From: Chloroflexi bacterium OHK40
GTDB lineage: Bacteria; Chloroflexota; Chloroflexia; Chloroflexales; Chloroflexaceae
Length of the DNA stretch: 64,000 nucleotides
Reading direction: 5' to 3'
NCBI GenBank assembly: GCA_004367505.1
Contig: SFCB01000266.1
Coordinates: 1-64,000, forward strand
The first letter of the stretch is position 1, and every line of letters starts with the position of its first letter. The notes under the pieces are model-generated. The model made no database searches. It saw nothing but the letters and a program-made list of their open reading frames with translations, and was not told where the DNA came from. This document shows positions 12,058-63,939 of the stretch, in pieces. The translations under genes and the position numbers were made by a program.

Positions 12058-12259
12058 TAGCAACCCCTGGTTGAGTCAGACAGGGTTCGAGAGATCGTGC
12101 CAGTCTGGTGACGGATGCGGCGTGCTGGAGCGCGTCAGAACGCCATTGGCGTGCGGCGCTCGGGCTTGCGCACCGTGCATCCGGGGAGCTCGTTTGGCAC
12201 CCTGGAGACGTGGCACACTGCGCCCGGGTGCGCGCGACCGAGCGATGGTGGTGTTCCAG

Positions 12260-12565: not shown

Positions 12566-12572
12566 AATAGGG

Positions 12573-12656: not shown

Positions 12657-12854
12657 CGTGGCGCCAGGGGGCGACGACGGGTTCGTCATGGTACGCATCC
12701 TGAGCGCGTACAGCACCTGGCGTCCTGTCGCATGGGTAAGAACGTGGATGCGTAAGGACGGCGCGTAGCAGGAGAGGCCGGCGGCTGGCCACCAGGTGGA
12801 GGTGGCCCACCAGGCAGCGGGCGTCGGGGCGGTGATACCCTCTTGAGGTACGTC

Positions 12855-29491: not shown

Positions 29492-30028
29492 ATGATCCCC
29501 CCGAACAAAGCCGCGCCTATGGCATCGGCGCCCATGCGCTACAGCGATGACGGCCAGGTTGACTGGGGCTCGATGTGGGACAGCTTCTGCGCCCTGGCTC
29601 TGGATGGAGGCCCGCCCCATCGCGGTACCATGCTCCACCCCGGCGACGCCTCGGAGCCGGCGAGCCCGGCCTACCAGGCGGTGGTGGCCGAGATCGCCCG
29701 TGGGGTGCTGGCGGTGAGCGGGCTGCGGGCCGAGGCGGCGGCGCCGGGCTGGCTGGCCCTAACCTGCGACTCGCCAGGCATGGCCCGCTGGCTCGCCGAG
29801 GCGATTGTTGGCGAGAACGTGGCTGCGCGCCATGAGGGCGCGCGGCTCCTGGTACCCACCGGCGCCAACTACAGCCTCAAGGGCGAGATCAAGAACGTAA
29901 TCACCGCCGTGGCCAAGACGACCCACTACTGGCGCGAGCATCTGCCCCAGGCCGCCAAAGAGGCCGTGGAGTCCCAGGAGCGGCTGGCGAGTCTCTGGCG
30001 TGGGCTGCGACGGGCCTTCAGGGGTTGA
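29492..30028 (+). CDS. Conserved hypothetical protein
   Basis: 178 residues, start preceded by AAGGAGC. The composition is that of a folded cytosolic protein. Two stretches look family-like: DSPGMARWLAEAIVGENVAA and SLKGEIKNVITAVAKTTHYW, which I associate with a widespread uncharacterised family but cannot name. Its last 11 bases overlap the end of the convergent kinase gene. Confidence 0.75.
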   Translation: MIPPNKAAPMASAPMRYSDDGQVDWGSMWDSFCALALDGGPPHRGTMLHPGDASEPASPAYQAVVAEIARGVLAVSGLRAEAAAPGWLALTCDSPGMARWLAEAIVGENVAARHEGARLLVPTGANYSLKGEIKNVITAVAKTTHYWREHLPQAAKEAVESQERLASLWRGLRRAFRG

Positions 30029-48068: not shown

Positions 48069-50525
48069 ATGACGACGCCTTCCTCCATTGAGCGGATCGA
48101 GAAGCTCATCCTGGAGCACGCCCGCCAGGCCCAGGACTGGGCCCTCCCCAGCGAGTGGAATCGTATCCGAGCGGCCTACCAGGCCCTGCCCGAGCTCCAG
48201 CAAGAGCTCGCTGCGGTGCGCCAGAGCCAGGCCGGGATCAATGATAGCCCGCGTCACTATGCGATCTTCCTTGGCCGTAGCCCCGACTCGCCCGGTGATC
48301 TGGTCGTGGGGCTTGGCTCCACCCGGCTGGAGGTGCGCGTGGCCCCCGGCCTGCTCTCCAGCCCCGAGCAGCTCACTGTCGGCCAGGAAGTGATCCTCAA
48401 CCGCGACCAGAACACCGTGATCGGCCTGCGCGACACCTACCTTCGCGGTGAGACGGCGGAGGTGGTCAATCTCCTCAAGCCCGCCGGTGCCGCCGAGGTG
48501 CTGGCCCTCGGCGAAACGGCTGAGGGCGCGCCCTCGGTGCGGGTGGCCTGGCGCGAGGGTGAAAAGCTGGATCTGGGCTGCCCGCCGGAGCTCGCGGCTA
48601 GCCTGCGCCCCGGCGATCTGGTCCGCTTCGATGGTTCCTCGCAGATGGTCGTGGAGCGCCTGCGCCCCCGGCTCCACGTGCGCTCCGGCGGCAGCGATGG
48701 AGTAGTGGTGGAGGTCAGCGACGCGCTCTTCGCCGAGCGGGTCGCGATCGGCGATATCGTGCGCATCGAGCCCGCCCTCAAGCTTGCGCTCGAGAAGCTC
48801 CCCGCCTATGAGACCGGCGGCCTCTCGCTGGAGGAGGTCCCGGATGTGACCTACGAGGATATTGCCGGGCTCGACACCGAGATCGAGCAGATCTATGATG
48901 CGATTGAGTTGCCCTATCTCTACCGCGCGCAGTTCGAGCGCTTTCGCCTCGAGCGGCCCAAGGGCATCCTGCTCACCGGCCCCCCCGGCTGCGGCAAGAC
49001 GATGGTCGCCAAGGCCGTGGCCAATAACCTCACCCAGAGCATCCGCCGCTACCTGACCGGCCTCGAACGCCTGCTGAAGGTTTATGTCGAGCTTCTTGAT
49101 GCGCCGTCCGACGCCGAGGCCATGGCCGCTTACGCGCGCCTTGCGGGCCAGGGCCACCCGGCCGTAGCCACCCGCGCGGCCGCTCTGGAGTACTGTGGCG
49201 AGTTGCTGCGGGCCGCCGATCTCGACCCGGCCCTGGCCCGCAAGCGGCTGGGCGAGATCGCCCGCCGCCTCGACAGCCAGGACGGGGTGCGCAGCTTCTT
49301 CCTCAACGTCAAGGGCCCCGAGCTGCTGAATAAGTACGTTGGCGAGACCGAGCACCGGATCCGCAAGATCTTTGAGGAGGCCCGCGAGCGCGCCGACTAC
49401 TACACGCCGGTGATCATCTTTTTCGACGAGATGGAGGCCATGTTCCGCACGCGCGGCAGCGGCCGCTCCTCCGATGTCGAGACGACGATCGTTCCCCAGT
49501 TTCTCACCGAGCTCGATGGGGTCGAGGCAACCGCGAACCTGATTATCATCGGGGCGAGCAACCGCCAGGATATGATCGACCCGGCCATCCTTCGCCCGGG
49601 CCGCCTCGATGTGAAGGTGAAGATCGACCGCCCCGACGCCGACGCGGCCCGCGAGATCTTCGCGCTCTACCTGCTTCCGACGCTCCCGCTCATGGCCGAG
49701 GGCCCGGTGGTCCCTGCGCCTCCTGGCACCCCCGGCGCGGTCGTTTTTCGGACTGCCTACCGCCTACCCGCCGACGAGGCAGCCCGCGAGCGTCTGTCGC
49801 CCGAGCTACGGGCCGTGGGCGAGTTGCTGCCCTTCCCCTGCGATCTGCGGCTGATCCAGAGCCTCGGCCCGGCCCTGCCTGGCCGTCTCGCCAGGCTCCC
49901 CGCCGAGCTCAGCGTGGCCCAGGCCCTCGCCCGCCACCCCGACGATGAGGAGTTCGCCGGCAAGCTCGGGCGTTTCCGGAGCTCTACTCCCATAGGGGCG
50001 ATCGTAGCGGCCGCTCAGGAGTTGCAGGCCCGCAGTGCCGCCGACCCGGCCTTCGCCACGGGCCTGGAGCGGCTCCGGCGCCAGGAGTGGCTGGCCGAGG
50101 CCCTGATCGACGAGGTGGTCGAGTTGATGTATAGCTCCACCAGCGCGATCAGCGTGCTCACCCGCCAGAATACGCGCTACCGCTTCCCGCTCAAAGAGTT
50201 CGCCAGCGGCGCGGTGATCGCCAATATCGTCGCTCGTGCCAAGAAACAGGCCGTCAAGGAGCTTGTTGCCGCCGGTGATGGCGCCGCCCGTGGCCTCGGC
50301 CGCGCGCACCTCTTCGCGGCGCTGCGCCAGGAGTTCGAGGAGAACCGTGAGCAGCTCGCCCTCCACAAGCTCCGCACCGAGATGGGCCTCGCTGGCGAGG
50401 AGTTGCTGACGGTGGATCTGCACCTCGAACGGTTTGACCAGGACCCCTGGGCTGAGGAGAAGGTGCGCCAGGATCGGGCGGTGGTGGTGGCGGTGCGGAT
50501 CGAGTCGTCCGACGTTGCGGGGTGA
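48069..50525 (+). CDS. Mpa/ARC-like AAA ATPase (proteasomal ATPase homologue)
   Basis: 818 residues. The N-terminal ~60 residues are helical but shorter than the long Pup-binding coiled coil of Mpa. Two OB-like segments follow (about 65-230), then one AAA module: Walker A GPPGCGKTM (304-312), FLNVKGPELLNKYVGETEHR, Walker B IIFFDEMEAMFRTRG (449-463), sensor GASNRQDMIDPAILRPGRLD with the arginine finger. Between Walker A and FLNVKG is an ~85-residue helical insertion (about 320-408) not in Mpa. The C-terminus ends ESSDVAG, without the GQYL tail that docks Mpa to the 20S core. It should unfold tagged proteins. First gene of the operon. Confidence 0.92.
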   Translation: MTTPSSIERIEKLILEHARQAQDWALPSEWNRIRAAYQALPELQQELAAVRQSQAGINDSPRHYAIFLGRSPDSPGDLVVGLGSTRLEVRVAPGLLSSPEQLTVGQEVILNRDQNTVIGLRDTYLRGETAEVVNLLKPAGAAEVLALGETAEGAPSVRVAWREGEKLDLGCPPELAASLRPGDLVRFDGSSQMVVERLRPRLHVRSGGSDGVVVEVSDALFAERVAIGDIVRIEPALKLALEKLPAYETGGLSLEEVPDVTYEDIAGLDTEIEQIYDAIELPYLYRAQFERFRLERPKGILLTGPPGCGKTMVAKAVANNLTQSIRRYLTGLERLLKVYVELLDAPSDAEAMAAYARLAGQGHPAVATRAAALEYCGELLRAADLDPALARKRLGEIARRLDSQDGVRSFFLNVKGPELLNKYVGETEHRIRKIFEEARERADYYTPVIIFFDEMEAMFRTRGSGRSSDVETTIVPQFLTELDGVEATANLIIIGASNRQDMIDPAILRPGRLDVKVKIDRPDADAAREIFALYLLPTLPLMAEGPVVPAPPGTPGAVVFRTAYRLPADEAARERLSPELRAVGELLPFPCDLRLIQSLGPALPGRLARLPAELSVAQALARHPDDEEFAGKLGRFRSSTPIGAIVAAAQELQARSAADPAFATGLERLRRQEWLAEALIDEVVELMYSSTSAISVLTRQNTRYRFPLKEFASGAVIANIVARAKKQAVKELVAAGDGAARGLGRAHLFAALRQEFEENREQLALHKLRTEMGLAGEELLTVDLHLERFDQDPWAEEKVRQDRAVVVAVRIESSDVAG

Positions 50526-50529
50526 GCCG

Positions 50530-52209
50530 ATGGCGACGCTGATGGGCATCGAGACCGAGTACGGGGTGGCGCTCCTCGGCGCTCCGCCTGACCCCTTCTT
50601 CGCCTCGCAGCTGGTCATCCAGGCCTACCAGCAACTCGGCCTCCCCTGGGCCACCGCAGTGTCGCCCCTCGCCAGCTTCGACTTCGATCGGCTCGGTGAT
50701 CCGCCTGGCGCCCTTGAGACCAGCCTGATGCTCACCAACGGCGCAAGGCTCTACATCGACCACGCCCACCCTGAGTACTGCACCCCCGAGTGTGGCTCGC
50801 CGCTCGCCCTCGTCGCCGCCGACAAGGCCGGCGAGCGCATCCTCGCGGCCTGCCAGGCCCGGATAAACGGCAGCGGCGTGCTTCCCGCTGGCTGCCAGCT
50901 GCGGCTCTACAAGAACAACAGCGACCACAAGGGCAACAGCTACGGCTGCCACGAGAACTACCTCGTGCCACCCGGCCTCTACGAGGCGCTCGTCGCCCCT
51001 GGCTCTGCACTCCTGGCCCGTGGCCTGCTGCCCTTCCTCGTCACCCGCCAGATCTTCTGTGGCGCCGGCAAGGTGGGCTCCGAGAATGGCACCCCCGCCG
51101 CCGGCTTCCAGCTCACTCAGCGGGCCGACTTCTTCGAGACGATCACGGGCCACCAGACCACCTACAACCGGCCGATCTTTAACCTGCGCGATGAGCCCCA
51201 TGCCGACCCGCGCCAGGCCCGGCGCCTGCACGTGATCTGTGGCGATGCCACCATGGCCGAGCTCTCCACCTTTTTGAAGGTGGGTACCGCCCAGATCGTT
51301 CTCGCCATGCTCGCCGCCGGGGCCATCCCCGACAACCTGGCGTTCGCCGACCCTGTCGCCGCCCTCCGGCTGGTCTCCCGGGATCTGAGCTTTGCCGGGC
51401 TGCTGGCGCTCGCCGACGGACGCCACATGACGGCCCGCGAGCTCCAGTTGCGCTACCTGGAACTGGCCCACGGCTATCTCAGCCGGAGCGGCGGCAGCGA
51501 TGAGCAGTGGGAGGTGCTCCAGGAGTGGGAACAGGTACTCGGCGCGCTTGCCGGTGATCCCGCCGGCCTGGGCCGCCGCCTGGATTGGGCGATCAAGCGC
51601 CAGGTGCTCGAGCGCTACCTCGAAGCCCGGGGACTCACCTGGGAGCTCGTGCAGACCTGGGAACCAGCGATCGCGCGCACCCTCGTCGCCGAGGAGCCTA
51701 CCACGGCGGACCTGGCGGCCGCCCGTGAGCTCGCTACCGGCGCTGGCCTGCCCTGGGGTGACTACGAGCTCCAGCGCGAGGCCTACTTTGCGCTGCGCCG
51801 GCTCGATCTCGAGTACCACGATCTGCGCCAGGGCGAGGGTGAGGAGCGGGGGCTCTACTACGAACTGGAGCGCCAGGGCCTTGTCGAGCGGCTGCTCTAT
51901 GACGATGACATCGAGCACCTGCGCACGACTCCCCCCGCCGAGACGCGCGCATGGGCAAGAGGCCACTGGATCGCGCGTTTTCATGAGTATCTCCTGGCCG
52001 CCGACTGGGGCGGCATGATCCTGGCGCTTCCCCACGGCAAGGCCCGGCTTGTGTGCCGCCTGAATATGCTTGATCCGCTGCGCGGCAGCGCCGAAGACCC
52101 GGCGGTCGAGGCGTTGACGCTCGCAGCGCTTCAGCAGCAGGCTGTGGCGCTCGCCGGCGCGGAGCCAGCCCCCTCGCGTACGCCAGAGCACCGGAGCGAG
52201 CAGCCATGA
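50530..52209 (+). CDS. dop: Dop-like Pup deamidase/depupylase
   Basis: 559 residues of the glutamine-synthetase-like Dop/PafA family. Nucleotide/metal residues sit in MGIETEYGV (E8, E10); the catalytic Asp is D77 in NGARLYIDHAHPEYCTPECG, which is the Dop form of that motif. KNNSDHKGNSYGCHENYLV and RLHVICGDATMAE complete the active site. Before the D77 motif there is a loop (about 40-66) in the place of the Dop loop. It would remove Pup from substrates. It starts four bases after the ATPase stop and its TGA overlaps the pup ATG. Confidence 0.9.
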   Translation: MATLMGIETEYGVALLGAPPDPFFASQLVIQAYQQLGLPWATAVSPLASFDFDRLGDPPGALETSLMLTNGARLYIDHAHPEYCTPECGSPLALVAADKAGERILAACQARINGSGVLPAGCQLRLYKNNSDHKGNSYGCHENYLVPPGLYEALVAPGSALLARGLLPFLVTRQIFCGAGKVGSENGTPAAGFQLTQRADFFETITGHQTTYNRPIFNLRDEPHADPRQARRLHVICGDATMAELSTFLKVGTAQIVLAMLAAGAIPDNLAFADPVAALRLVSRDLSFAGLLALADGRHMTARELQLRYLELAHGYLSRSGGSDEQWEVLQEWEQVLGALAGDPAGLGRRLDWAIKRQVLERYLEARGLTWELVQTWEPAIARTLVAEEPTTADLAAARELATGAGLPWGDYELQREAYFALRRLDLEYHDLRQGEGEERGLYYELERQGLVERLLYDDDIEHLRTTPPAETRAWARGHWIARFHEYLLAADWGGMILALPHGKARLVCRLNMLDPLRGSAEDPAVEALTLAALQQQAVALAGAEPAPSRTPEHRSEQP

Positions 52210-52478
52210 GCGAGCAGCAGCGTATCCGCAAGATCACCCGCCGGCGCGAGCAACCCGAGGAGCCCCCCCGGGCCGGGCAGTTGCCCACTGGCCCCAGCGA
52301 GGAGCAGCGCGCCGCCGAGGAGCGCTTGAATCGCCTCGATACCACGATCAATCAGATCGTCGGCCAGCCCCAGGCCAGTGCCCCCAGCGAGGTGGCCGGC
52401 GAGCGCCTCCGCACCCGCATGCGCGTCCTTTCGAGCGAGGAGCTCTGGCGCCAGTTCCGTCAGATCGGCGGTGAGTAG
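52206..52478 (+). CDS. pup: Pup-like small modifier ending Gly-Gly-Glu
   Basis: 90 residues, highly charged, with no predicted globular core: an Arg/Lys/Gln-rich N-terminus, Pro-rich middle and a helical segment (about 31-52) as in Pup, which is disordered until bound by the ATPase. The C-terminus is QFRQIGGE. Pup must end GGE (or GGQ followed by deamidation) for PafA to couple its Glu side chain to lysine; here no deamidation is needed. It has a single lysine (K9). Position between dop and pafA is the classical one, joined to dop by ATGA overlap. The sequence is divergent from actinobacterial Pup and could equally be called a UBact-type variant. Confidence 0.88.
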   Translation: MSEQQRIRKITRRREQPEEPPRAGQLPTGPSEEQRAAEERLNRLDTTINQIVGQPQASAPSEVAGERLRTRMRVLSSEELWRQFRQIGGE

Positions 52479-52485
52479 GAGCCCT

Positions 52486-54249
52486 ATGGCCCTCCAACAG
52501 CGCGTCTTCAGCCTCGAAACCGAGTATGCGATCAACTTCTTCCCCGCCGGTGGCCCTGGCAGCCCCCCGGAGCAGGCGATCGTCCAGGCCCTCCAGGAGG
52601 CGATCAATCCGGCCTACGGGCTCCACGGCAGCCTCTTCCTCGTCAACGGCGGCAAGCTCCACCATGATCTCGGCCACGCCGAGTGGTCGCTCCCCGAGTG
52701 CCGCTCGGCCTACGAGGCCACCGTCTACAACAAGGCGGCCGACCACGTGCTCGGTCAGGCCGCCGCTGAGGCGACCGCCATCCTCTCACGCTCCGGCTTT
52801 CGCGGCGACCTGCTGGTGATCAAGAACAATGTCGACTCCGTTGGCGTGACCTACGGCTGCCACGAGAACTATCAGACCCTGCGCGACGCGGAGTTCCTGC
52901 CCGACCTGCCTGAGCAGCGCCACTTCCTGCGCTATATGGTCCGCTGCCTGGTGCCCTTCCTCGCTACCCGGCAGGTCTTCGCTGGCGCCGGTCGCCTGGT
53001 GCTCGAAGCGCAGCCTGGCCCGCCCTGCCTGCGCTTCGAGATCTCCCAGCGGGCCCGCTTCATCGACCGGGTGGTCTCGAAGGAGACGACCAGAGAGCGC
53101 CCGATCGTCAACCTTGGCCGTGAGGGAGAGCCCCACGCCAGCGGGAACTCCCGTCGCCTGCACCTCATCCTCGGCGACGCCAATCTCTCTGGCTGGGCCA
53201 CCTGGCTGAAACTCGGCACGACCGGCGTGCTGCTGCGGATGATCGAGGATCTCTCCCTCACCGATCTGCCCCTGCTCCAGAATCCGGTGGCCGCCCTCGC
53301 CACGATCGCCGCCGACCCGGATTGCCGGGCGATGGTCTCGCTCAAGGATGGCCGCCAGGCGAGTGCCCTCGACATCCAGTGGCACTACTATGAGCAGGCC
53401 TACAGCTACCTGGAGCATTTTGGCAGCAACGACGATGAGCGCCGGGTGATGGAGGAGTGGGGCCAGGCGCTCCAGGATCTGGACAACGATCCGTCGCTGC
53501 TGCGCGATCGGGCCGACTGGGCCGCGAAACGCTACCTGATGGAGCGCAGCCTGCGTGAGCATGGCCTGACGCTTGACGAGGCCGCCAGCCACCCCGAGGC
53601 CCTCCGCGCGCTCCAGCATATCGACCTGCTCTATCACGATATCGGCCCCGCCGGGCTCTTTACCCAGCTCTGGCCCGTGGACACGCTGGTGTCGGCTGCC
53701 GAGATCGAGGCGGCCAGGCGGGCACCGCCATTCTCGCGGGCTCTGCTGCGCGGCGCGACGATCGAGCTCGGGCGGCGTGGGTTGGCGACTGTAAACGTCC
53801 AGGAGTGGTCTTCGGTGAGTATCGACAATACCACCTACCACCTGCCGGCCCCACTTGCCTTCGACCTGCAGCTGCTCCCCGAGGCCGCCCGCGCTGTGGC
53901 GCTGCCCTGGCTCCAGCAGGCCTATCAGCACCCCGACCCGCTGGTACGCCAGCAGGCCATGCGGGCTGCCGGCCCGGCTCCCGTGGAGCAGTTGCCCGGT
54001 CTGGCCGCGATCGCCCGGAGCGATCCGAGCCTCCCGGTGCGCATCGCGGCAGTGGAGGCCCTCGCGGCGAGCGGCCTTCCCGAGGCCGGCGATCTGCTCC
54101 TGCCGCTGCTCGGTACCCCGGAGGCCGGCCTGCGCTGGGCGGTCGAGGCGGCGCTCAGCCACCTCACCCATGCCATTCGCGGTGAGCCCGTGCCCGCCAG
54201 CCCCGAGAGCCCCGTGACCCGCGAGGGCCTCGTCCAGATGATCGGCTAA
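52486..54249 (+). CDS. pafA: PafA-like Pup ligase with C-terminal HEAT-like repeats
   Basis: 587 residues. The N-terminal 460 residues are the Dop/PafA fold: SLETEYAI (E11, E13), NGGKLHHDLGHAEWSLPEC with D61, KNNVDSVGVTYGCHENY and RRLHLILGDANLSGW. The D-x-G-H spacing matches PafA rather than Dop, and there is no Dop loop, so I assign it as the ligase; the residues around the Asp are divergent from actinobacterial PafA. The last ~130 residues (LQQAYQHPDPLVRQQAMRAA, DPSLPVRIAAVEALAASG, GLRWAVEAALSHL) are two or three HEAT-like repeats not present in PafA, possibly for substrate or partner binding. Starts seven bases after the pup stop. Confidence 0.85.
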   Translation: MALQQRVFSLETEYAINFFPAGGPGSPPEQAIVQALQEAINPAYGLHGSLFLVNGGKLHHDLGHAEWSLPECRSAYEATVYNKAADHVLGQAAAEATAILSRSGFRGDLLVIKNNVDSVGVTYGCHENYQTLRDAEFLPDLPEQRHFLRYMVRCLVPFLATRQVFAGAGRLVLEAQPGPPCLRFEISQRARFIDRVVSKETTRERPIVNLGREGEPHASGNSRRLHLILGDANLSGWATWLKLGTTGVLLRMIEDLSLTDLPLLQNPVAALATIAADPDCRAMVSLKDGRQASALDIQWHYYEQAYSYLEHFGSNDDERRVMEEWGQALQDLDNDPSLLRDRADWAAKRYLMERSLREHGLTLDEAASHPEALRALQHIDLLYHDIGPAGLFTQLWPVDTLVSAAEIEAARRAPPFSRALLRGATIELGRRGLATVNVQEWSSVSIDNTTYHLPAPLAFDLQLLPEAARAVALPWLQQAYQHPDPLVRQQAMRAAGPAPVEQLPGLAAIARSDPSLPVRIAAVEALAASGLPEAGDLLLPLLGTPEAGLRWAVEAALSHLTHAIRGEPVPASPESPVTREGLVQMIG

Positions 54250-54263
54250 GAGCGAGGAGCCCC

Positions 54264-55118
54264 ATGGCCATTCTGGTCTACCGCGACGCCACCGGCGCGC
54301 CGAGCAAGCACGAGTTTCGCGGTGACCTGCGGATCGGCGCCGACTCGCGCAACCAGTTGGTGCTACCGGCCGGGCTGGGTGTGGCTCCCGAGCACGCCCT
54401 GATGACTCGCTCGGCCCTCAACCGTGTGCCGGTGCTGATCGATTTCGCCGCTGGCCAGACGTGGGTCGAAGGCCGGCCCGTGGTAGGCTTGCAGGTGCTC
54501 CGCCACGGCGCCCACATCCGCCTCGGCGCCGTCGAGCTCACACTGCTGGAGCTGCGGATTGTGCGCCTGCGTCCGGGGGAGCGCGCCATAGGGCGCGCGT
54601 GCCAGATCTGTAAGGATAGCCTGTGCGCGGGTGACGAGGTGGTGAGTTGCCCCTACTGCCGCATCCTGATCCACCGCTCCTGCTGGGCAGACGCAAGCCT
54701 CTGCCCGAACTACAACTGCAGCTACTCCATGCACAGCGCCGTAATGGACGCCCTGGCCGACCAGGTACACTTTGATCGCGACATCGCCGAGGACTCCCGG
54801 CTCGTCGAGCGTTTCAACCGCCGTGGCACGCTGGTGAACCAGGGCACCTTTTGCCAGGCCGGGGAGCCTCGTGACCAGGTGACCTTCCAGCCCCACGAGC
54901 GGGCCGCCTTCTGCCCCCGGTGTGATACGGCTTTCCACCTGGAGTGCTGGCTGCGCCTGGAGCAATGCCCCGTGTGCCGCTTCGATGTGTGGGGGCTGAT
55001 TGATCGGGCCTTTCGCAGCCCGGAGAGCGAAGCGGAGGACGAGCAGGAGCCCGCCCGGATTGCACGCGTCACCATCCTGATTCACGGCGGGCCGGAAGGC
55101 GGGCGCCATGGCGGCTAA
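54264..55118 (+). CDS. FHA protein with two RING-like zinc clusters (candidate E3)
   Basis: 284 residues. Residues 1-100 look like an FHA domain (RIGADSRNQLVLPA, VAPEHALM, HGAHIRLGAVELTLLE). Cluster 1: C113-x2-C116, C129-x2-C132, H137, C140-W, C147, C152. Cluster 2: C197, C217-x2-C220, H225, C228-W, C235-P-x-C238. The order Cx2C..Cx2C..H..CW..CPxC is that of RING/treble-clef fingers in prokaryotic ubiquitin-like operons. FHA implies reading of phosphothreonine. As it sits directly before E1 and E2 genes, an E3 or adaptor role is inferred. The protein ends GGRHGG, an exposed Gly-Gly. Its 3' end overlaps the E1 start by 11 bases. Confidence 0.85.
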   Translation: MAILVYRDATGAPSKHEFRGDLRIGADSRNQLVLPAGLGVAPEHALMTRSALNRVPVLIDFAAGQTWVEGRPVVGLQVLRHGAHIRLGAVELTLLELRIVRLRPGERAIGRACQICKDSLCAGDEVVSCPYCRILIHRSCWADASLCPNYNCSYSMHSAVMDALADQVHFDRDIAEDSRLVERFNRRGTLVNQGTFCQAGEPRDQVTFQPHERAAFCPRCDTAFHLECWLRLEQCPVCRFDVWGLIDRAFRSPESEAEDEQEPARIARVTILIHGGPEGGRHGG

Positions 55119-56304
55119 CCAGGAGCCGATCGAGATCACGGACCCTCAGGAGGACCGCTACGCGACGCTGCGCGCCATCCCCTGGTGGGACCAGGCCCGC
55201 GTGCAGGCCGCCCGGGTAGTGGTGGTGGGCGCCGGTGCCCTGGGCAACGAGGTGTTAAAGAACCTCGCCCTGCTCGGCGTGGGCACCCTGGTGATCATCG
55301 ACATGGACCGGGTAGAGGCGGCGAACCTCACCCGCTCGCTGCTCTTTCGCGCCGGGGATGCCGGGCGCTCCAAAGCCGAGGCGGCAGCGGCCGGCGTGCG
55401 GGCCATCAACCCCGAGGTGAGCGCCATCTCGCTCCACGCCGATGTCACCCGCGAGGTGGGGCTGGGCCTCTTCCGCCGCGCAGACGTGGTGATTGGTTGC
55501 CTGGACAACCGGGCCGCCCGCCTGGCCGTCAACAGCGCCTGCTGGCAGGTAGGCCGCCCCTGGGTGGACGGCGGCCTGGGCGTACTCGACGGCATGGTGC
55601 GGGCCTTTACGCCGCCCGAGGGCGCCTGCTACGAGTGTACGCTTACCAGCACTGACTACGCCCTGCTCAACCTGCGCTACTCCTGCCCGCCGGGCTTTCG
55701 CCTGGTGGCTGGCCGCGAGCCCACCACGCCCATGGCCGCCGCGATCATCGGCGCCATGCAGGTGCAGGAGGCCGTCAGGCTCATCCATGGCCAGACTGTC
55801 CGTGGTGGCCGGAGCGTGTACTACAGCGCCAGTGGCCCTCGCCTCACCCCGGTGGAGCACCGGCGCCGGGCCGACTGCACGGCCCACCACCGCTACGAGC
55901 CGATCGTCGAGTTGCCGCTCCACGTCGAGAGGCTCACCCTGGGCCAACTCTTCGCCGCCGCCCACGCTCACACCGGCGGACCCGCCGTGCTCTACCTCCA
56001 GCGTCCGATCGTTACCTTCCTTAGCTGCCCCGACTGCGGGCAGCACGAGCTGGCGGCGCGGCCCTACGACACCGTCGTGCCCGATTTCGTGCCGTGCCCG
56101 CAGTGCGGGGCGTTGCGCCGCTTCGATGTGACTGGTACACTGCATAACGATCCGGATCTTGCGGCAATTCCGATCGCCCAGCTCGGTATTCCCCCACTTG
56201 AGATCCTGTCGTTTCGCACCGTGGAGGGCTGGCGCTACCTGGAGTTGAGCGCCGACGCCGACGCCATGTTCGCCCACAGAGAGGAGGATGGCGCGCGATG
56301 CTAA
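55108..56304 (+). CDS. ThiF/E1-like ubiquitin-activating enzyme homologue
   Basis: 398 residues. The Rossmann ATP site is VVVVGAGALGNEVLKNLALL (G41-A-G-A-L-G46), with IIDMDRVEAANLTRSLLF (acidic D65/D67 and N73-x2-R76) and GCLDNRAARLAVN as in E1/MoeB/ThiF. Candidates for the thioester Cys are C174, C177 (GACYECTLTSTDY) and C193. A zinc ribbon is likely from C307, C310, C330 and C333. The C-terminal ~60 residues may be a beta-grasp or UFD-like domain that binds the E2. It should adenylate the C-terminus of a UBL and pass it to the next gene's product. Starts inside the previous gene and its end overlaps the E2 start. Confidence 0.92.
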   Translation: MAANQEPIEITDPQEDRYATLRAIPWWDQARVQAARVVVVGAGALGNEVLKNLALLGVGTLVIIDMDRVEAANLTRSLLFRAGDAGRSKAEAAAAGVRAINPEVSAISLHADVTREVGLGLFRRADVVIGCLDNRAARLAVNSACWQVGRPWVDGGLGVLDGMVRAFTPPEGACYECTLTSTDYALLNLRYSCPPGFRLVAGREPTTPMAAAIIGAMQVQEAVRLIHGQTVRGGRSVYYSASGPRLTPVEHRRRADCTAHHRYEPIVELPLHVERLTLGQLFAAAHAHTGGPAVLYLQRPIVTFLSCPDCGQHELAARPYDTVVPDFVPCPQCGALRRFDVTGTLHNDPDLAAIPIAQLGIPPLEILSFRTVEGWRYLELSADADAMFAHREEDGARC

Positions 56305-56993
56305 CGCCCCGCGAGAAGCGCCTGCTCTACGAATTTCAGCAGGTGCGCACCCTGCAGACGCCCTACAGCCTGTTCGAGATCATCTGCGGTCGGCTTACTC
56401 CTGCCGAGAGCACCGAGTTCCTCAAGGCGGGCATGTCGCCTGAGGTGATTGCCGATGGCCTGAAGAGCGAGTTTCTGCTGCCCGCCGAATTCGAGCGGCG
56501 CTACCCTGGCCTGCCGCCTGAGAAGTATGGCGTGCGCTATCGCTGCACGGGTATGGGGGATAAGAGCACCGAGAGCTCCGAGCACATGATGGAGGTGGTC
56601 TTCAGCCTCAAGTACCCCAGTGAGGCGCCGATCTTCGTCTGGCTCACCCCGATCTGGCACCCCAACTTCCGCCGGCCCTACATTTGCGTGCAGGGCCGCC
56701 CTTTCGCGGTAGGCCTCACGCTAGCCCAGATTATTCTCGAGGTGGGCCGCATGGTGCAGTACCAGAACTATAACCTGGCCGACCCGCTGAACTGGGAGGC
56801 GGCCGAGTGGGTGCGCACCAACCCTCGCCCCTTCCCGGTAGACAACCGCGATCTACGCGACTGGCGCAACATCGTTGGGCCCCGGCGGGTTTCGGCACCC
56901 GCTGACGGTGCTCTGGTGGAGCTCGTGGGAGAGGGCGGCACGGGCACCATGGAGGGCGGCGCGCTACTGGAGCTTTTACCGGAGGAGCCGTGA
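56298..56993 (+). CDS. E2-like (UBC-fold) conjugating enzyme
   Basis: 231 residues. From about 80 to 180 the UBC pattern is plain: FSLKYPSEAPIFVWLTPIWH, H121-P-N123, then the probable catalytic C130 in PYICVQG, GLTLAQIILEVGRMV, and YNLADPLNWEAAEW, which equals the PNPxDPLNxEAA of E2 enzymes. The N-terminal ~75 residues, with a helical bundle of charged residues, replace the usual short E2 helix and may recognise the E1 or target. The C-terminal ~45 residues are Pro/Gly/Glu-rich and disordered. A GAGGAGG lies just upstream inside the E1 gene. Confidence 0.9.
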   Translation: MLTPREKRLLYEFQQVRTLQTPYSLFEIICGRLTPAESTEFLKAGMSPEVIADGLKSEFLLPAEFERRYPGLPPEKYGVRYRCTGMGDKSTESSEHMMEVVFSLKYPSEAPIFVWLTPIWHPNFRRPYICVQGRPFAVGLTLAQIILEVGRMVQYQNYNLADPLNWEAAEWVRTNPRPFPVDNRDLRDWRNIVGPRRVSAPADGALVELVGEGGTGTMEGGALLELLPEEP

Positions 56994-57955
56994 GACAGCT
57001 CGACCAGGTGATCCACGTAGCCCAGCGCAAGGGCTGGCAGGCCCGCCGCGCGGCGGGGTCCTGGCTGCTGCGCCGTAGCGATCTGAGCGGCCCCGTGGAG
57101 CTGAGCCTCTCGACGCACTGGCTTGCCCTGCGCTACCAGTTGCTCAGCGGCGCCAGCCCCTGGCCGGGCCGGCAACTACCTTCCAGCGAGCAGGTAAGCC
57201 TCTACCGGGCCGTGCTGCTGCGCAACGAGCGCATGTACATGGCCAAGATCTGCCTGGACCTCCACGGCTACCCGGCTCTCTGTGTGGAAGTGCCGGCTGC
57301 CGGTCTGGCTCCCCTGTTGATCACCCGCGCCCTGGAGGCCATCCCCCGTTACAAGCTGCGTCTGCCTGCCTCCTGGAAGCCCGCCACCGACGACAGCGAG
57401 CTGGTGGCTATGGCCCCCGAGCACCCCACCCGGCTCTATGCGCCCGACCATAGCACCGCCGGGCTACCCGAGCACCTGCTCTACGACTATGTGCGCATGG
57501 TCGAGCCCTACGGCTGGGCGGTACGCACGACGCCCAGGGAGCCCTATTGGCACTTCGGCTACAAGAACCGCCTGCGGCTCTACGAGGCCTATGCGGTGAT
57601 TACGCGCGCGTGGTGTAGCTTCCGGGTGCCGGTGTTGCTTGAGCCGCGGGCCTCGGTGCTGGGCGCGCCCACGGCCGCCGCCGCTGCCTGCCTGGAGTAT
57701 CTGCTCCGCCTCAGCGACACCTGGCACGTCGCCAAGCCAGGCGTGGACGAGCACGGCCAGGTGCTGCTGCTGCTGGAGGTGCCCACCGAGGCCCTCACCC
57801 CCGAGCTCTTTCGCGCCGTCACCCGCACCATTGGCACCTATCTGGATCGCTACGGCCAGGAGATTCAGATCATGGCCACCCTCGATCAGGATCAGCCCCT
57901 GGCCGAGGCGCTCCTCCGTGCCCGCGCTACGCCTCCCGTTGCTGCCGCCATCTGA
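56990..57955 (+). CDS. Unknown protein, two YbjN/CesT-like domains
   Basis: 321 residues, GTG start overlapping the E2 stop. Two similar halves are visible. The first (about 1-115) has LDQVIHVAQRKGWQARR, then LSLSTHWLALRYQLLSG, LLRNERMYMAKICLDLHGYP and ITRALEAIPRYKL; the second (about 200-310) has AACLEYLLRLSDTWHVA, QVLLLLEVPTEALTPELF and TIGTYLDRYGQEIQIM. This alternation of strands and a long helix resembles the YbjN / type III secretion chaperone fold. I infer a chaperone or adaptor binding UBLs or substrates. No catalytic residues were found. Confidence 0.75.
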   Translation: MRQLDQVIHVAQRKGWQARRAAGSWLLRRSDLSGPVELSLSTHWLALRYQLLSGASPWPGRQLPSSEQVSLYRAVLLRNERMYMAKICLDLHGYPALCVEVPAAGLAPLLITRALEAIPRYKLRLPASWKPATDDSELVAMAPEHPTRLYAPDHSTAGLPEHLLYDYVRMVEPYGWAVRTTPREPYWHFGYKNRLRLYEAYAVITRAWCSFRVPVLLEPRASVLGAPTAAAAACLEYLLRLSDTWHVAKPGVDEHGQVLLLLEVPTEALTPELFRAVTRTIGTYLDRYGQEIQIMATLDQDQPLAEALLRARATPPVAAAI

Positions 57956-57972: not shown

Positions 57973-59688
57973 ATGCCTTTTCAGGTGATGATTGAGGACC
58001 ACACCGGCAATATCAGCCACGCGGCCAAGATGGTAGAGAACGTGCCGATTGCGCGGCTTCTGCCCGCGATCGTCAGCGCCCTCGGTCTGCCGATTATCGA
58101 CTCAACTGGCCGCTCGATGGCCTACAGTATCCGGCATCACGACCGCGAGCTTCAGGATGACGACACCCTCGAGACCGCCGGGGTGGCCCAGGGCGATACG
58201 CTCACGATTGTACCTGCAATGTTCGCCGGAGGTGGCTGGCAAGTTCCCTTCCCGAGCATCGGAGATGTCGGCCTGAACAACTCATCGCCGCGCAATCCGT
58301 GGGACCCTATCACGATGCTCCAGCGAATCCTTGAATCGCAGGCGCTCTCATCGACAGTCCGAGACGAGATTGATCGCTTGCTTGACGTTATTTCGCGTGA
58401 GTACTCCCAGTTTCAGCAACGGTATTCTCACGATAGTCAGTCTGCAACGCCAGATAATACTCCTCATGTGGATGTGCCGCGTGGCCAGCAAGATGATACG
58501 CACTCAACGCAAGGCATCCAGGCGGAAGAAAATCCGGCTCCACAGTCGTTTCCGTACCGGCCGCTTGATCACGCGCTGTTGATGATTACCCATCTTGCGC
58601 CGACCACCCTCAATGTCCACGTGCCAGGCGTGATGCTCCCACCCCAGGGTACGACCTGGCGTCCGCAGCCGGAGGAATGGTCGGCCGAATTGGCCTCGCT
58701 CGCCGTGATGATAGAGCAAGAGCAGGCGATGGCCGAAGATGAACGGCGCGCAAAGCGTCGTCGCTGGCGAACAAAAACGAAAATCCTGGGAAAGCGCTTG
58801 TTCAGAGACCTGCAAGCAACACCCTTTGAAACAGCGCTCCAGAATATTCTTTCCGCGCAGCGGATCGTTGACCGCCGCCATGCGCCAGTCTGCTTTCGAG
58901 CTCCGCGCGAGTTTCTGGCCATCCCCTACGAGCTATTGCACGATCAGACCGGCTATCTCGCTCTCAGGTTGCCGCTCTACCACCAGGTAACCGATTTCGC
59001 TCCATCACCAACGCAGTCATTCGCCCGGCTCGTACGCCAACTTCAGCGCGAAGGTACCCCCTTGCATATGCTTCTTCTAGATGATGACCATCATGAGAGC
59101 ATCGGCAATACTGCTCGCGTAGAGGAAACCATCCGCCACAATAGTGCCATTCGTGTCGAGATTGTCCGGGCGAGCGGACTGGATTGTATTTCCGCACTGC
59201 GAGATCGCGCGCTCTACCACCTCGTCCACTTCGAAGGACAGGCCATCCACGATGCAGAGCTCCCCGACGACAGCCACTTTGATCTCGGCAGTGAGGCGCG
59301 GATCAGCGCAGCCCAGCTTGCGCAGTGGCTCGAGCACAAAGGAACCAGTCTCCTTTATATCAATGGCTGGACTGGTGCGGATATCGGTCGTAGTGACACT
59401 CTGATCGCCAATCAGTACTACAGCCTGATCGACGCAGCCCTCTCCGCCGGGGTGGCCCACGTGGTAGGCTTCCGCTGGCCGCCGCCGGTGGCCGGGCGTG
59501 CCATACTCACGGCTGCCTTCTACCAGCACCTCTTCGCCGATCCTTTTGCCCCGGAGGTAGCGTTGTACGAGGCCCGCCGCGTGGTAGCCCAGGAGCCACT
59601 GGGCGATCTTACCTGGATGAGCTCGCTCCTGGTAAGCCAGCACTCCTACCTGACCGCAACGAGCGACATTGATTGGCAGCTCTTCTGA
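57973..59688 (+). CDS. YukD-like UBL fused to a catalytically degenerate CHAT domain
   Basis: 571 residues. The N-terminal 80 residues form a beta-grasp UBL (VMIEDHTGN, ARLLPAIVSALGLP, LQDDDTLETAGVAQGD, TLTIVP) followed by AGGG (85-88), a possible processing site. A low-complexity polar linker (about 90-215) precedes a CHAT (caspase-like) domain. There the catalytic His region is HFEGQA (H419, Gln at 423) and the expected Cys position is W466 (YINGW), against HFAGHG and YLSAC in the SIR2-CHAT protein. So the protease is probably dead. Bases 58210-59300 are clearly less GC-rich and use rarer codons than both flanks, suggesting recent domain exchange. Confidence 0.88.
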   Translation: MPFQVMIEDHTGNISHAAKMVENVPIARLLPAIVSALGLPIIDSTGRSMAYSIRHHDRELQDDDTLETAGVAQGDTLTIVPAMFAGGGWQVPFPSIGDVGLNNSSPRNPWDPITMLQRILESQALSSTVRDEIDRLLDVISREYSQFQQRYSHDSQSATPDNTPHVDVPRGQQDDTHSTQGIQAEENPAPQSFPYRPLDHALLMITHLAPTTLNVHVPGVMLPPQGTTWRPQPEEWSAELASLAVMIEQEQAMAEDERRAKRRRWRTKTKILGKRLFRDLQATPFETALQNILSAQRIVDRRHAPVCFRAPREFLAIPYELLHDQTGYLALRLPLYHQVTDFAPSPTQSFARLVRQLQREGTPLHMLLLDDDHHESIGNTARVEETIRHNSAIRVEIVRASGLDCISALRDRALYHLVHFEGQAIHDAELPDDSHFDLGSEARISAAQLAQWLEHKGTSLLYINGWTGADIGRSDTLIANQYYSLIDAALSAGVAHVVGFRWPPPVAGRAILTAAFYQHLFADPFAPEVALYEARRVVAQEPLGDLTWMSSLLVSQHSYLTATSDIDWQLF

Positions 59689-59725
59689 CCGGCGAACCGC
59701 CAAGCACCCGCGAAGGAGGATGTTG

Positions 59726-60523
59726 ATGGCCATCCAGGTGACGATCGAGGACCACACCGGCAATACGAGCCGCGCGGCCAAGATGGTAGAGAACGCGCCG
59801 ATCGCGCGGCTGCTCCCGGCGGTGATCAGCGCCCTTGGCCTGCCGATTATCGACTCGGCTGGCCGCCCGATGGTCTATCACCTCAGCCATAACGATCGCC
59901 AACTCCAGGACGACGAGACGCTTGAGGCCGCCGGGGTGGCTCAGGGTGACACCCTGACGATCGTACCGGTGATGACGGCGGGCGCTCTGGCCGCCGCCCA
60001 GGAGCTAGTGGAGCTCGGCGAGGTGCTGCGCGCCCACCGCCCCGTCCCCGGGCTCCCCCGTGGCGTCCGACCCAGTTCCACCGGTCTCCAGGTGCAGATC
60101 GCGCCCGATGCGATGGCCCGCGTCTGGGCTCAGGCCCACGCCGAGCCCGGACGTGAGGTGGGTGGCCTGCTCGTCGGTACGGTCTACGAGGAGCCGGGCC
60201 AGTTCTTCGTGGCCGTCGAGGAGGCCCTGGAGGCCAACCATACCGCCGCCAGCCCTGGTTCGCTCACCTTTACCCTGGCTACCTGGCTAGACCTGCTGCC
60301 CCGCCGGCGCCGCCGCGCCGAGGCCGCTGTGCTCGGCTGGTACCACTCCCACCCCGGCCACGGCATCTTTCTCTCCAGGAGCGACATGCACATCCAGCGC
60401 AACTTCTTCCACAGCGCGCCATGGTACATCGCCCTGGTGGTGGATCCGGCAAGCGAGCGCTGGGGCGTGTTCGGCTGGTCGGGCGATGAGGTGGTGCGCT
60501 GCGCCGATTCGCGCGTTCAGTGA
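59726..60523 (+). CDS. YukD-like UBL fused to a JAB/JAMM isopeptidase
   Basis: 265 residues. UBL domain 1-80, nearly identical to that of the preceding gene. After a linker comes a JAB domain (about 120-262) with intact JAMM zinc site: E144 in REVGGLLVG, H207-S-H209-P, S217 and D220 in IFLSRSDMHIQ. It should be an active deubiquitinase-like enzyme, able to cut UBL precursors or isopeptide conjugates. The ATG at 59726 has AAGGAGG eight bases upstream. The fusion might self-process at VMTAGALAA to free the UBL; this is inference. Confidence 0.92.
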   Translation: MAIQVTIEDHTGNTSRAAKMVENAPIARLLPAVISALGLPIIDSAGRPMVYHLSHNDRQLQDDETLEAAGVAQGDTLTIVPVMTAGALAAAQELVELGEVLRAHRPVPGLPRGVRPSSTGLQVQIAPDAMARVWAQAHAEPGREVGGLLVGTVYEEPGQFFVAVEEALEANHTAASPGSLTFTLATWLDLLPRRRRRAEAAVLGWYHSHPGHGIFLSRSDMHIQRNFFHSAPWYIALVVDPASERWGVFGWSGDEVVRCADSRVQ

Positions 60524-60545
60524 TCTCCGCCAACAGGAGCCGGCT

Positions 60546-61712
60546 ATGAAGTATCTTCGGGTGGCGATCAGTGATGAACGGCAGAGCCCGCTCTATCAGC
60601 GCGATTTCACGGTGCGCGAGCTGCTCGAGCCTCTGGTGCGCCGCCTGATCGAGCAACTGGTGGACCAGAACCTGGTTTTTCAGGGCGAGCATATCGGCTG
60701 TGTGATGATCCCCCGCTACGGCGACCTCATGCGCAAGAACCCCACTGTGGTGATGGACCCTGAGCGCGCCCGCTCCTACGAGTCCTCCTTTAGCCTCAGC
60801 TTCGAGGAGCCTGTGCAGCCCGACACGCCGCTCAAGTACCTAACCTGCGAGTTGCGTGTGCGCGAGCGGGGTGTGATCTACCGCGCCGACTTCGCCCTCA
60901 ACGACCTGCGGGGCTTCTGGTCCGGCCTGGAGCTTGGCCTCGTGCAGCTGAGCGTGCTCCAGAGAGGCCAGACCTACCGCCGGCGCCTGTACGCCCGCGA
61001 CGATGAGCAGGCTCGCATTGGCGTGGACGATGTATTCGCCTGGAGACAGGATGACACGCCCCTGGTAGAGATCATGTCCGACACGCCGGTCGCCCCTGTG
61101 CTTGCCCGCCGCTCCCTCGGCGACTTCCCGGTGGAGGAGCGGGTGACGCTGGAGTTGCTGGGCGATGGTGCCGCTGATCCCGAGGCATGGCAGGCTCGGG
61201 GCGGTGTCGAGGTGCTGATCACCCGCCCGACGCTCGAAGCAGTGCGTGCGGTGGCCCGCAGCGGTGCCACCGTGGAGGAGGGTGGCGTGTTGGTAGGCCA
61301 TGTCTACGAGCGTGACAACGCCAGTGGCTACCTCGTGGAGATCACCGACCATATCAAGTCCGAAGGCACCTTCGCGAGCGTTACCGAGCTACGCTACACC
61401 TTCGAATCCTGGCAGAAGCAGACCGCCGTGCTCAAGGAGCGCTTCCCCGGCAAGCGCATCGTGGGCTGGTACCATACCCACCTGGTGCGGATGGGCGTGC
61501 TGCATATCGAGGGCTCCCAGGGCACGCTCTTTGATACTGGGCTCTTTTTTTCACGGGACGACCACTTTATGCATCGCCAGTTTTTCCGCGAGAAGTGGTA
61601 CGTGGCCCTGGTGCTGGATACCGAGGCCACCGCCGCGTTCTTCTGCTGGTCGGGCGACGAGATTGTGCCCAACCCCAGCTATGTGATCACGAGCCAGGAA
61701 GGAGCGGCATAG
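60546..61712 (+). CDS. JAB/JAMM-domain protein with unknown N-terminal domain
   Basis: 388 residues. The C-terminal JAB domain (about 215-380) keeps E245 in EEGGVLVG, H310-T-H312, S336 and D339 in FFSRDDHFM; the loop between HxH and SxxD is about 23 residues instead of 7, so the active site is extended. The N-terminal ~205 residues include two beta-rich stretches and are unassigned; they may bind the UBL or E2. Start 23 bases after the previous stop, with GGAGCC upstream. Confidence 0.87.
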   Translation: MKYLRVAISDERQSPLYQRDFTVRELLEPLVRRLIEQLVDQNLVFQGEHIGCVMIPRYGDLMRKNPTVVMDPERARSYESSFSLSFEEPVQPDTPLKYLTCELRVRERGVIYRADFALNDLRGFWSGLELGLVQLSVLQRGQTYRRRLYARDDEQARIGVDDVFAWRQDDTPLVEIMSDTPVAPVLARRSLGDFPVEERVTLELLGDGAADPEAWQARGGVEVLITRPTLEAVRAVARSGATVEEGGVLVGHVYERDNASGYLVEITDHIKSEGTFASVTELRYTFESWQKQTAVLKERFPGKRIVGWYHTHLVRMGVLHIEGSQGTLFDTGLFFSRDDHFMHRQFFREKWYVALVLDTEATAAFFCWSGDEIVPNPSYVITSQEGAA

Positions 61713-61713: not shown

Positions 61714-63939
61714 ATGAGCCTTCCTGCTGAGACGCTCAGAGAACTCCGGATCCTCGCCGCCGGGATCGAGGAGGTACGCGGTTCGCGTGACGATGCCTTC
61801 GTGCTCTTTGTCGGCTCGGGCTCCTCGCTCGTCAACGACCGACCGGTGGCCGAGGAGTTGCTCAGCGAGGTGCTCCAGGCTCGCTGGGGTGGCCAGCTCA
61901 GTGAGCAGGCGATCGCGGCCCTTAGTCTCGAGGAGCGGGTGGGCAAGTTCGAGGAGATCTGGCCCCGCGCGCTCGACGCCGCCAGAAAGCGCAAGCTGCG
62001 CGAGCTCTACGATAGGCTCAAGCCCTCGCCGGGCCACTCGAGCCTGGCCCAGTTGATCAAAGAGGGCTACTTCCCCTTTGTGCTCAGCAGCGCGATCGAC
62101 CCCTTGCTGGACAATGCGCTGGCCCACGTAGCGCACCAGGAGCAGATGCTGCTCGGCCTCTGGCGAGTCTGGATCAACGGCCGCGACCCGGAGGATGAGA
62201 TCCGCGAGGTGCTGCGCAAATCGCCGGTGGATCTGGCGGTGGTGCGCCTCTGCGGCGATTTCCGCTACCCCGGCAAGGATCGCTCGGTGCCTGTGACCCG
62301 CAGCCAGGTGCTCAGTCTGATCCAGCCGATCAAAGATGCGCTCGCCGAGCGGCTCCAGGGGAGCCTGATCATTGTTGACTATACGCCTTTTGATGCCTTC
62401 CTGCTCGACGTGATCCCCGAGTACGGCATGGGCAACGTCTTCGTGATTGGCCGGCAGCGCCCCGACCAGCAGTTCCAGGACCGGCTCTACCACCGCCGGC
62501 CGAAATATATTGAGGACCCCAGCCTGGACTTCAGCACGATCATGAGCATCATCGCCGGTGAGCTCGGGGTCTTCAAGGAGGTGAAGCAGCTCACCGGCAA
62601 GGAGGTGAGCCGCGAGACGATCGAGCGGCTCAGCGAGGTGGTGCCAGAGCCAGCGGAGGCGGGTGAGTCCGAGCCGGTTGCCGACCGCCGCCTGCTTGAG
62701 ATGATCAAGCTGGAGTTCGAGCGGGGCCAGCAGCAGCGTGGCGCCCCCGCCGCCGCTCCTGTGGAGACCCCCATCGACCTTACGCTGGTTGAGCCGAGCG
62801 TGACGATCTTCGCCCTGCATATGGACACGGCCCAGCACGTGAGCTTCAGTGTCGAAGGAGTGCTTAACTACAAGAGTGAGGACGCTCCGCTCTGGCGCGG
62901 CGACAGCCCCGAGGAGCTCAATGCCGTGATGCAGGACATGGGCCGCGACCTCGCCAACGCCCACCGCCTTGCCGATAAGCTCGCCCGCGATGCCTGGCGC
63001 AGCAAAGCCAAGCGCGAGGGCACCCGCCTGCGCAAGGGCCTCATTGATAGCTATAGCGATCTGGTGCGCCGGCTCGACCTCGCCCGGCACACCGTGGACG
63101 ACCCGGAGAATCTGACGCTGGTCTTTAGTGGGCCGCGAACCTCCCTGGGCATGCCCTACGAGTTGCTCTACCTCGACGACCGTCCGCTGGTGACCTACCA
63201 CCCCGCCTGCCGCCAGGTGAGCGGCGCCACCTCGCGCCACAGTCAGACCTTCGAGGCCTTTGCGCGCCAGCTCAAGCGCCAGAAGAAGCCCCTGCGCGTG
63301 TTGCTGCTCTCCGCCGATACCAACAACCTGAAGACTGACCAGGAGATTGCCGACCTGGAGCAGCAGATTGGCCAGCAAGCCCAGGGCCTCGTTGAGGTGC
63401 AGATCGAGGCCCGGCCCACCGCCCGCTCCGGCATCGCCGAGGTTGAGGGCCTGCTCAAGCGCTCGCCCTACCACATCATCCACTTTGCCGGCCACGGCGC
63501 CTTCGATGAGCGCACCGGCGAGAATAGCGGCCTGCTCTTCTGGAAGGACGCTGGCCAGCGCAAGGAGAAGGTCGTGCTCACCGCCCGGCAGCTCAATGAG
63601 TGGCTGAGCGGCAGCGAGACGCGGCTGGTCTACCTGAGCGCCTGTGTGGGCGCGCGGATCGGGGGCGAGGCGCTGCTGCGGGCCAACGACTACCTGGGAG
63701 TGCTGGACGCGGTGGTGCAGGCGGGGGTGCCTTACTGCCTGGGCTACCGCTGGAACGTCACCGATAGTGGCAGCCGGGCCTTCGCCAGCCTGTTCTACCA
63801 GCGACTCTTCAGTGCACCTTTCGCTTTCATCCCCGAGCGGGCCGTTTACCACGCCCGCAAGGAGCGCTACGCCGCCGCCGGTACCGACGATGAAACCTGG
63901 ACTTCGCCCATCCTTGTGGCCCAGAACCTGTACCGCTAG
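61714..63939 (+). CDS. SIR2-like/CHAT fusion protein (active-looking CHAT protease)
   Basis: 741 residues. The N-terminal ~280 residues resemble the SIR2 domain of defence proteins (FVLFVGSGSSLVNDRPVAEE, FPFVLSSAIDPLLDNAL), but the usual Asn and His of the NADase site are not seen: SSAID stands for TTNYD and VRLCGDF for LHG. A linker (about 280-390) follows, then CHAT with PYELLYLDDRPLV, catalytic H594 in HFAGHG, and C644 in VYLSACVGA, then DAVVQAGVPYCLGYRW. It should cut proteins when activated and is the operon's likeliest effector. It begins one base after the preceding stop and is the last gene seen; 63940-64000 shows nothing else. Confidence 0.9.
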   Translation: MSLPAETLRELRILAAGIEEVRGSRDDAFVLFVGSGSSLVNDRPVAEELLSEVLQARWGGQLSEQAIAALSLEERVGKFEEIWPRALDAARKRKLRELYDRLKPSPGHSSLAQLIKEGYFPFVLSSAIDPLLDNALAHVAHQEQMLLGLWRVWINGRDPEDEIREVLRKSPVDLAVVRLCGDFRYPGKDRSVPVTRSQVLSLIQPIKDALAERLQGSLIIVDYTPFDAFLLDVIPEYGMGNVFVIGRQRPDQQFQDRLYHRRPKYIEDPSLDFSTIMSIIAGELGVFKEVKQLTGKEVSRETIERLSEVVPEPAEAGESEPVADRRLLEMIKLEFERGQQQRGAPAAAPVETPIDLTLVEPSVTIFALHMDTAQHVSFSVEGVLNYKSEDAPLWRGDSPEELNAVMQDMGRDLANAHRLADKLARDAWRSKAKREGTRLRKGLIDSYSDLVRRLDLARHTVDDPENLTLVFSGPRTSLGMPYELLYLDDRPLVTYHPACRQVSGATSRHSQTFEAFARQLKRQKKPLRVLLLSADTNNLKTDQEIADLEQQIGQQAQGLVEVQIEARPTARSGIAEVEGLLKRSPYHIIHFAGHGAFDERTGENSGLLFWKDAGQRKEKVVLTARQLNEWLSGSETRLVYLSACVGARIGGEALLRANDYLGVLDAVVQAGVPYCLGYRWNVTDSGSRAFASLFYQRLFSAPFAFIPERAVYHARKERYAAAGTDDETWTSPILVAQNLYR

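Follow-up and report, generated by a model that had tools for sequence, protein, structure and literature searches.

RING-type E3 candidates of the Prok-RING_1 family were reportedly described in bacterial E1/E2/Ubl/JAB operons by Burroughs, Iyer and Aravind in 2011, and predictions of bacterial RING E3s encoded alongside an E1, an E2, a Ubl and a JAB go back more than a decade; to our knowledge, few if any bacterial RING-containing cascades have been reconstituted. The archaeal cascade of Caldiarchaeum subterraneum has reportedly been reconstituted in vitro, and its gene cluster is not known to contain FHA or Pup genes. We know of no E1/E2/RING cascade at the Pup locus of Corynebacterium glutamicum. 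The FHA domain of KIF13B binds its partner independently of phosphorylation. Prokaryotic RING-type E3 components of Ubl systems are cited as already published in PMC7159879, and the same source (Kaur et al. 2020, PMC7159879) mentions that in Thermofonsia and planctomycetes Ubl conjugation is coupled to Pup, so that both RING-type E3 candidates in such operons and the coupling of a Ubl system to Pup are published. The C. subterraneum E1/E2/RING/Ubl cluster is mentioned in PMC11354881. In C. glutamicum, pupylation takes place without a proteasome, and unfolding of the target has been proposed as the task of ARC (PMC8223512).

The window analysed here (64,000 nt of contig SFCB01000266.1 from Chloroflexi bacterium OHK40) carries genes for a Ubl cascade directly behind a pupylation set, with the gene at 54264 between the two (Table 1). 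Its product had been put forward in an earlier note as an FHA plus double RING-like protein and a candidate phospho-dependent bacterial E3; the pupylation half upstream is absent from that finding. We consider it reasonably probable that the protein is an E3-like or adaptor subunit of a Ubl cascade within a proteasome-less pupylation operon, its FHA-like domain serving for phosphate-independent docking. The open reading frame starts with ATG, has a ribosome-binding-like GAGCGAGGAG upstream and shares 11 nt with the E1 gene, which in turn shares 7 nt with the E2 gene; the description of the gene as fused by overlap to E1 and E2 is correct as to the overlaps, but the genes are separate and there is no fusion. 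Of the claimed architecture, the FHA-like N-terminus and the two Cys/His clusters were confirmed, but there was no Pfam FHA match and cluster 2 is short of one ligand. The E1 contains a CYECT...YSCP segment and a zinc-ribbon-like C-terminal part.

Table 1. Features of the pupylation and Ubl-conjugation locus and of the kinase gene in the window
Feature	Position	Strand	Basis or remark
Hanks-type kinase	30018-32108	-	
Mpa/ARC-like proteasomal ATPase	48069..50525	+	TIGR03689 467 bits; C-terminus without GQYL
Dop-like protein	50530..52209	+	TIGR03688 391 bits; PafA model 332
Pup-like protein, 90 aa	52206..52478	+	ends RQIGGE
PafA/Dop-like ligase, HEAT-like C-terminus	52486..54249	+	about 285 bits with both models
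FHA-like + tandem Prok-RING_1 protein, 284 aa	54264..55118	+	Pfam, ortholog alignment
FHA-like N-terminal domain, aa 1-97	54264..54554	+	Yop-YscD_cpl 6e-4; contact Arg, Ser, Asn absent
RING1, C4HC3	54570..54737	+	8 ligands: C113 C116 C129 C132 H137 C140 C147 C152
RING2, degenerate	54831..55013	+	7 ligands: C197 C217 C220 H225 C228 C235 C238
E1-like adenylating enzyme	55108..56304	+	ThiF 1.6e-52
E2-like conjugating enzyme	56298..56993	+	UQ_con 2.3e-7
YbjN-like protein, conserved neighbour	56990..57955	+	Pfam, locus comparison
Ubl (YukD-like) fused to CHAT protease domain	57973..59688	+	
Ubl (YukD-like, ...MTAG) fused to JAB/JAMM peptidase	59669..60523	+	
Second JAB-domain protein	60486..61712	+	
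Protein with C-terminal CHAT protease domain, N-terminal SIR2-like matches	61714..63939	+	

The 54264 protein matched Prok-RING_1 (PF14446) over two stretches with 6.5e-13 and 48.9 bits against a curated cut-off of 29.1, a score at which cluster 1 is not due to chance; the orthologue at locus L003 (a MAG named 'uncultured Anaerolineae') matched the same family with 3.9e-18 and 65.6 bits. Ligands of RING1 are spaced C113-x2-C116 ... C129-x2-C132 ... H137-x2-C140-W ... C147-x4-C152, those of RING2 C197 ... C217-x2-C220 ... H225-x2-C228-W ... C235-P-V-C238. The order Cx2C-Cx2C-H-CW-CPxC that had been assigned to both therefore needs correction: cluster 1 is C4HC3, but its last pair is Cx4C, not CPxC, and cluster 2 is without the second Cys of the first pair. 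The classic RING order is C3HC4. For prokaryotic RINGs, the C4HC3 order is given in a review (PMC11354881). All eight RING1 ligands are intact in six of the seven syntenic orthologues (window, L003, L092-L096); in L096, Ser is found at the C116 and C140 positions, and in the degenerate relative L097 the same two residues are replaced by non-Cys residues, so that an intact RING1 is not indispensable everywhere. No conserved linchpin Arg follows the last RING1 ligand across the aligned homologues. RING2 is homologous to RING1 (hhalign E 2.8e-10), and in 7/7 syntenic orthologues it has seven invariant ligands, the second Cys of the first pair being always missing.

RING1 alone (folding input: window and L003 rows only) was predicted at pLDDT 88, and a full-length AlphaFold model of the protein from two sequences was discarded at pLDDT 39. 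Compared by Foldseek over most of its length, the RING1 model matched EL5 RING-H2, RNF126 and Ring1b with TM 0.64 each, above PHD fingers at TM 0.42-0.54, with E-values that were weak (0.1 and up), as is usual for a 56-residue domain; matches in a viral structure library were mostly RING proteins. The RING1 profile scored against solved structures with MTF2 PHD at 2e-5 and RING-H2 EL5 at 9e-5. Despite the weak E-values, Foldseek hits and sequence profile agree on a predicted RING-like fold, and profile comparison linked RING1 by homology to RINGs from E1/E2 operons elsewhere in Chloroflexota (3.5e-15). Neither unconserved zinc ligands nor a fold unrelated to RING or treble clef, the two outcomes that the earlier note had named as speaking against it, was found, with the caveat that L096 and L097 are without two cluster-1 ligands, and for RING1 the fold is borne out by the model and its matches to E3 RINGs. 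As the RING fold, the ligand conservation and the conserved co-occurrence with E1, E2, Ubl and JAB come together, a predicted E3-like role is likely, and the designation as a candidate E3 is upheld to that extent.

Relatives were sought by phylum, order and genome-contig scans. The first phylum and order scans returned no full-length relative outside the window genome; the genome-contig scan placed the same locus in L003, and a search among relatives of the L003 genome, near which the relatives cluster, added five full-length homologues in matching gene surroundings (L092-L096) as well as a degenerate relative (L097). The gene is rare, with no full-length match in other genomes of the 400-genome phylum sample, and the search found no relatives on plasmids or viral contigs. 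Two weak matches (G026 at L034, G197 at L078) were rejected as relatives, being lone Prok-RING proteins away from E1/E2. All seven loci share the order ATPase-Dop-Pup-PafA-FHA/RING-E1, followed by E2-YbjN-Ubl-JAB where contigs allow; the full order is ATPase-Dop-Pup-PafA-HEAT-FHA/RING-E1-E2-YbjN-Ubl-JAB, of which the window is a variant with HEAT fused to PafA and one Ubl fused to JAB. The RING protein is thereby tied to E1, E2 and Ubl in a conserved operon, whose gene order has been retained although identity among the FHA/RING proteins is down to 32-42%. In L093 and L096 the contig breaks off within E1, so E2 onward is unseen there; for L094, the stretch read contains E2 and YbjN, but neither Ubl nor JAB was recognised in it. 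The CHAT/SIR2-like gene that ends the window set is accessory and was not seen at the other loci. Downstream of the JAB genes, a large beta-propeller/HEAT protein is encoded in both lineages (L119 1055-4765, contig 64054-67767; L003 15380-20497).

Elsewhere in Chloroflexota, E1-RING-E2-Ubl-JAB operons with the same RING family recur without Pup genes (L022-L031; L090 and L091 duplicate L026 and L021 and were not counted again), and no E1/E2/RING was found near the Pup loci L065-L077. In L022-L031 the RING forms the C-terminal end of proteins that are probably anchored in the membrane, and a Ubl is fused to the E2 in some of these operons (L023, L030).

E2s across the loci conserve the HPN motif and a candidate catalytic Cys (C130 in the window E2). 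The Ubls end in TAG, or carry TAG/FAG at the junction with a fused domain, and this junction suggests that they are processed there by the JAB peptidase. The two Ubls embedded in larger proteins in the window, Ubl-CHAT and Ubl-JAB, share the (T/F)AG junction. On the pupylation side, an ARC/Mpa ATPase, Dop, PafA and a Pup ending in Gly-Glu/Gln were all found; the NCBIfam scores of ATPase, Dop and PafA are high yet under the equivalog cut-offs, and Pup was called from its terminal motif, position and conservation, with no family match. No 20S proteasome match (PF00227) was obtained in the window genome, which is listed as 100% complete, or in the L003 genome, in a search that was positive in 10/14 control genomes, and the ATPase C-termini of the locus are without the proteasome-docking motif GQYL. 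The ATPase-Dop-Pup-PafA set (48069-54249 in the window, and L003, L092-L096) forms one apparent operon with E1/E2/Ubl/JAB, and no 20S was detected in the two genomes searched for it.

For the N-terminus, the Pfam FHA model gave no match, and the FHA relative Yop-YscD_cpl alone was returned, under its cut-off; against solved chains, the profile scored weakly with the FHA domains of KIF13B (E 0.064) and EmbR (0.46). Five residues, Gly, Arg, Ser, His and Asn, typify FHA domains, and three of them, Arg, Ser and Asn, make the contacts with the phosphopeptide (PMC4037201). Of these five, the 54264 protein retains Gly and His; both Arg and Ser are replaced by Ala, and Asn is lost (gap/Gly); the Ala in place of Arg is at the position equivalent to R70 of Rad53 FHA1, where the R70A exchange abolishes binding to phosphorylated targets (PMC5041073). 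The three contact residues were found in none of the eight homologues aligned (the window protein and seven relatives), and in L003-type orthologues the FHA-like loops are shortened or replaced. By contrast, among the 21 distinct aligned PF00498 rows of the same genome, by our own count, Arg is present in 17 of the 19 that cover it and Ser in 15 of 21. Since the contact residues are lost from the 54264 protein while the PF00498 domains of its genome mostly keep Arg and Ser, a phosphothreonine-reading role is unlikely, and the attribute phospho-dependent finds no support.

A Hanks-type kinase, to which attention had been drawn as lying in the same window, is present, but it lies about 16 kb away on the opposite strand with many genes between and is unlinked, outside the conserved locus. 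A Ser/Thr kinase gene (Pkinase 3.3e-57) was seen just upstream of the locus ATPase and co-directional with it in one of the seven loci (L096 9167-10408, - strand), whose FHA-like domain is also without the contact residues; this gene is the strongest point for a phospho link. No kinase was seen in the stretches read near the remaining conserved loci; these stretches cover the flanks in part. In L033, a related RING-Ubl-E1-E2-JAB operon of the same order, the E2 (12143-13951, + strand) is fused to hydrophobic, probably membrane-spanning, segments and to an FHA domain (PF00498 3e-13) in which Ser and His of SxxH are kept, so FHA-type modules recur in such Ubl systems. Because the closest RING relatives, in sister operons, are without FHA, the FHA-RING pairing of the 54264 protein looks independent of CHFR and RNF8, in line with the convergence that had been proposed.

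The proposal of a phosphothreonine-reading E3, in which the FHA domain would recruit substrates phosphorylated by a Hanks-type kinase as in CHFR and RNF8, can draw on the position of the FHA-like sequence N-terminal to a RING, on the kinase gene of L096 and on the recognised FHA domain of the L033 E2, but is made very improbable by the replaced contact residues in the window protein and its seven relatives, by the retention of Arg and Ser in most PF00498 domains of the genome and by the kinase-free stretches read at the other loci. Similarly remote is a defence or conflict module, in which Ubl conjugation and CHAT proteases, one of them Ubl-fused, would act against invaders and the RING protein would mark invader or self targets: related Ubl systems with a RING-type E3 are described in conflict systems in a passage of PMC7159879 and the window has CHAT domains and a Ubl-CHAT fusion, but CHAT is accessory, because the other syntenic loci read show no CHAT match, and PADLOC run on the cascade gave generic E1-E2 and JAB matches only. 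A non-catalytic scaffold, whose PHD or treble-clef modules would bind proteins and bridge the Ubl cascade to PafA/Dop with no E2-activating RING, deserves more weight and is still improbable; it would fit the C4HC3 order together with the MTF2 PHD profile match, the ligand missing from RING2 in all orthologues, the broken first zinc site of RING1 in L096 and L097, and the place of the gene exactly between PafA/HEAT and E1, whereas the whole-domain structural match is better to E3 RINGs than to PHDs and, in sister E1-E2-Ubl-JAB operons that have no Pup genes, the RING-like component belongs to the same family.

For the E3-like or adaptor subunit that we favour, the analysis shows the predicted RING1 fold, the conserved ligands, the homology, the synteny and the loss of phosphate-binding residues; catalysis, docking partners and outcome we infer as follows. 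The JAB peptidase would free the Ubl after its conserved TAG end; E1, to judge by the conserved catalytic motifs, would activate it and hand it to the E2 cysteine; RING1 would dock the charged E2, with the degenerate RING2 as a putative structural or partner-binding zinc module, and the FHA-like domain would hold substrates or the Pup machinery by phosphate-free contact. As a 20S proteasome was not found, ATPase-driven unfolding or remodelling would be a likelier end point than proteasomal degradation. A bolder form, which we hold to be doubtful, is that the FHA-like/tandem-RING ligase physically joins Ubl conjugation to pupylation, two chemically unrelated ways of tagging proteins, and one tag would then govern the other without a proteasome, for example by Ubl marking of pupylation enzymes or by passing substrates on to the ARC ATPase.

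In the literature, with Burroughs et al. 2011 known via citation, we found no description of the FHA-like/tandem-RING protein, of its lost phosphate-binding residues or of its proteasome-less setting. The compact conserved locus holds every part needed for cascade reconstitution and allows a test of whether bacterial RINGs truly act as E3s and of the role that Ubl and Pup tagging plays without a proteasome; it also offers an FHA-RING pairing that seems independent of CHFR/RNF8 and seemingly does without phosphate reading. With C. subterraneum it shares a prokaryotic E1, E2, Ubl, JAB-type peptidase and RING E3 in one cluster, and with C. glutamicum an ATPase, Dop, Pup and PafA but no 20S subunits (PMC8223512). 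Like the eukaryotic ubiquitin ligases CHFR and RNF8, the 54264 protein combines an FHA-type domain with a RING C-terminal to it in a single chain, but it differs from them in its C4HC3 Prok-RING, the absent phosphate-contact residues and the tandem degenerate RING; the best-scoring, if weak, FHA chain, that of KIF13B (PDB 3fm8/3mdb), comes from a kinesin context. The Prok-RING_1 E3 candidates have the same RING family, operon partners, YukD-like Ubl and C4HC3 order, whereas the FHA-like N-terminus, the degenerate second RING in tandem and the insertion into a Pup operon set the window protein apart, the sister Chloroflexota versions being RINGs that are either stand-alone or preceded by hydrophobic, probably membrane-spanning, segments. 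In the system of Kaur et al. (PMC7159879), a Ubl cascade of the kind with a RING-type E3 likewise stands beside Pup conjugation; the sentence that describes it makes no mention of an FHA fusion, a tandem RING or a missing proteasome, and relative to that description the window locus adds the Ubl-CHAT and Ubl-JAB fusions.
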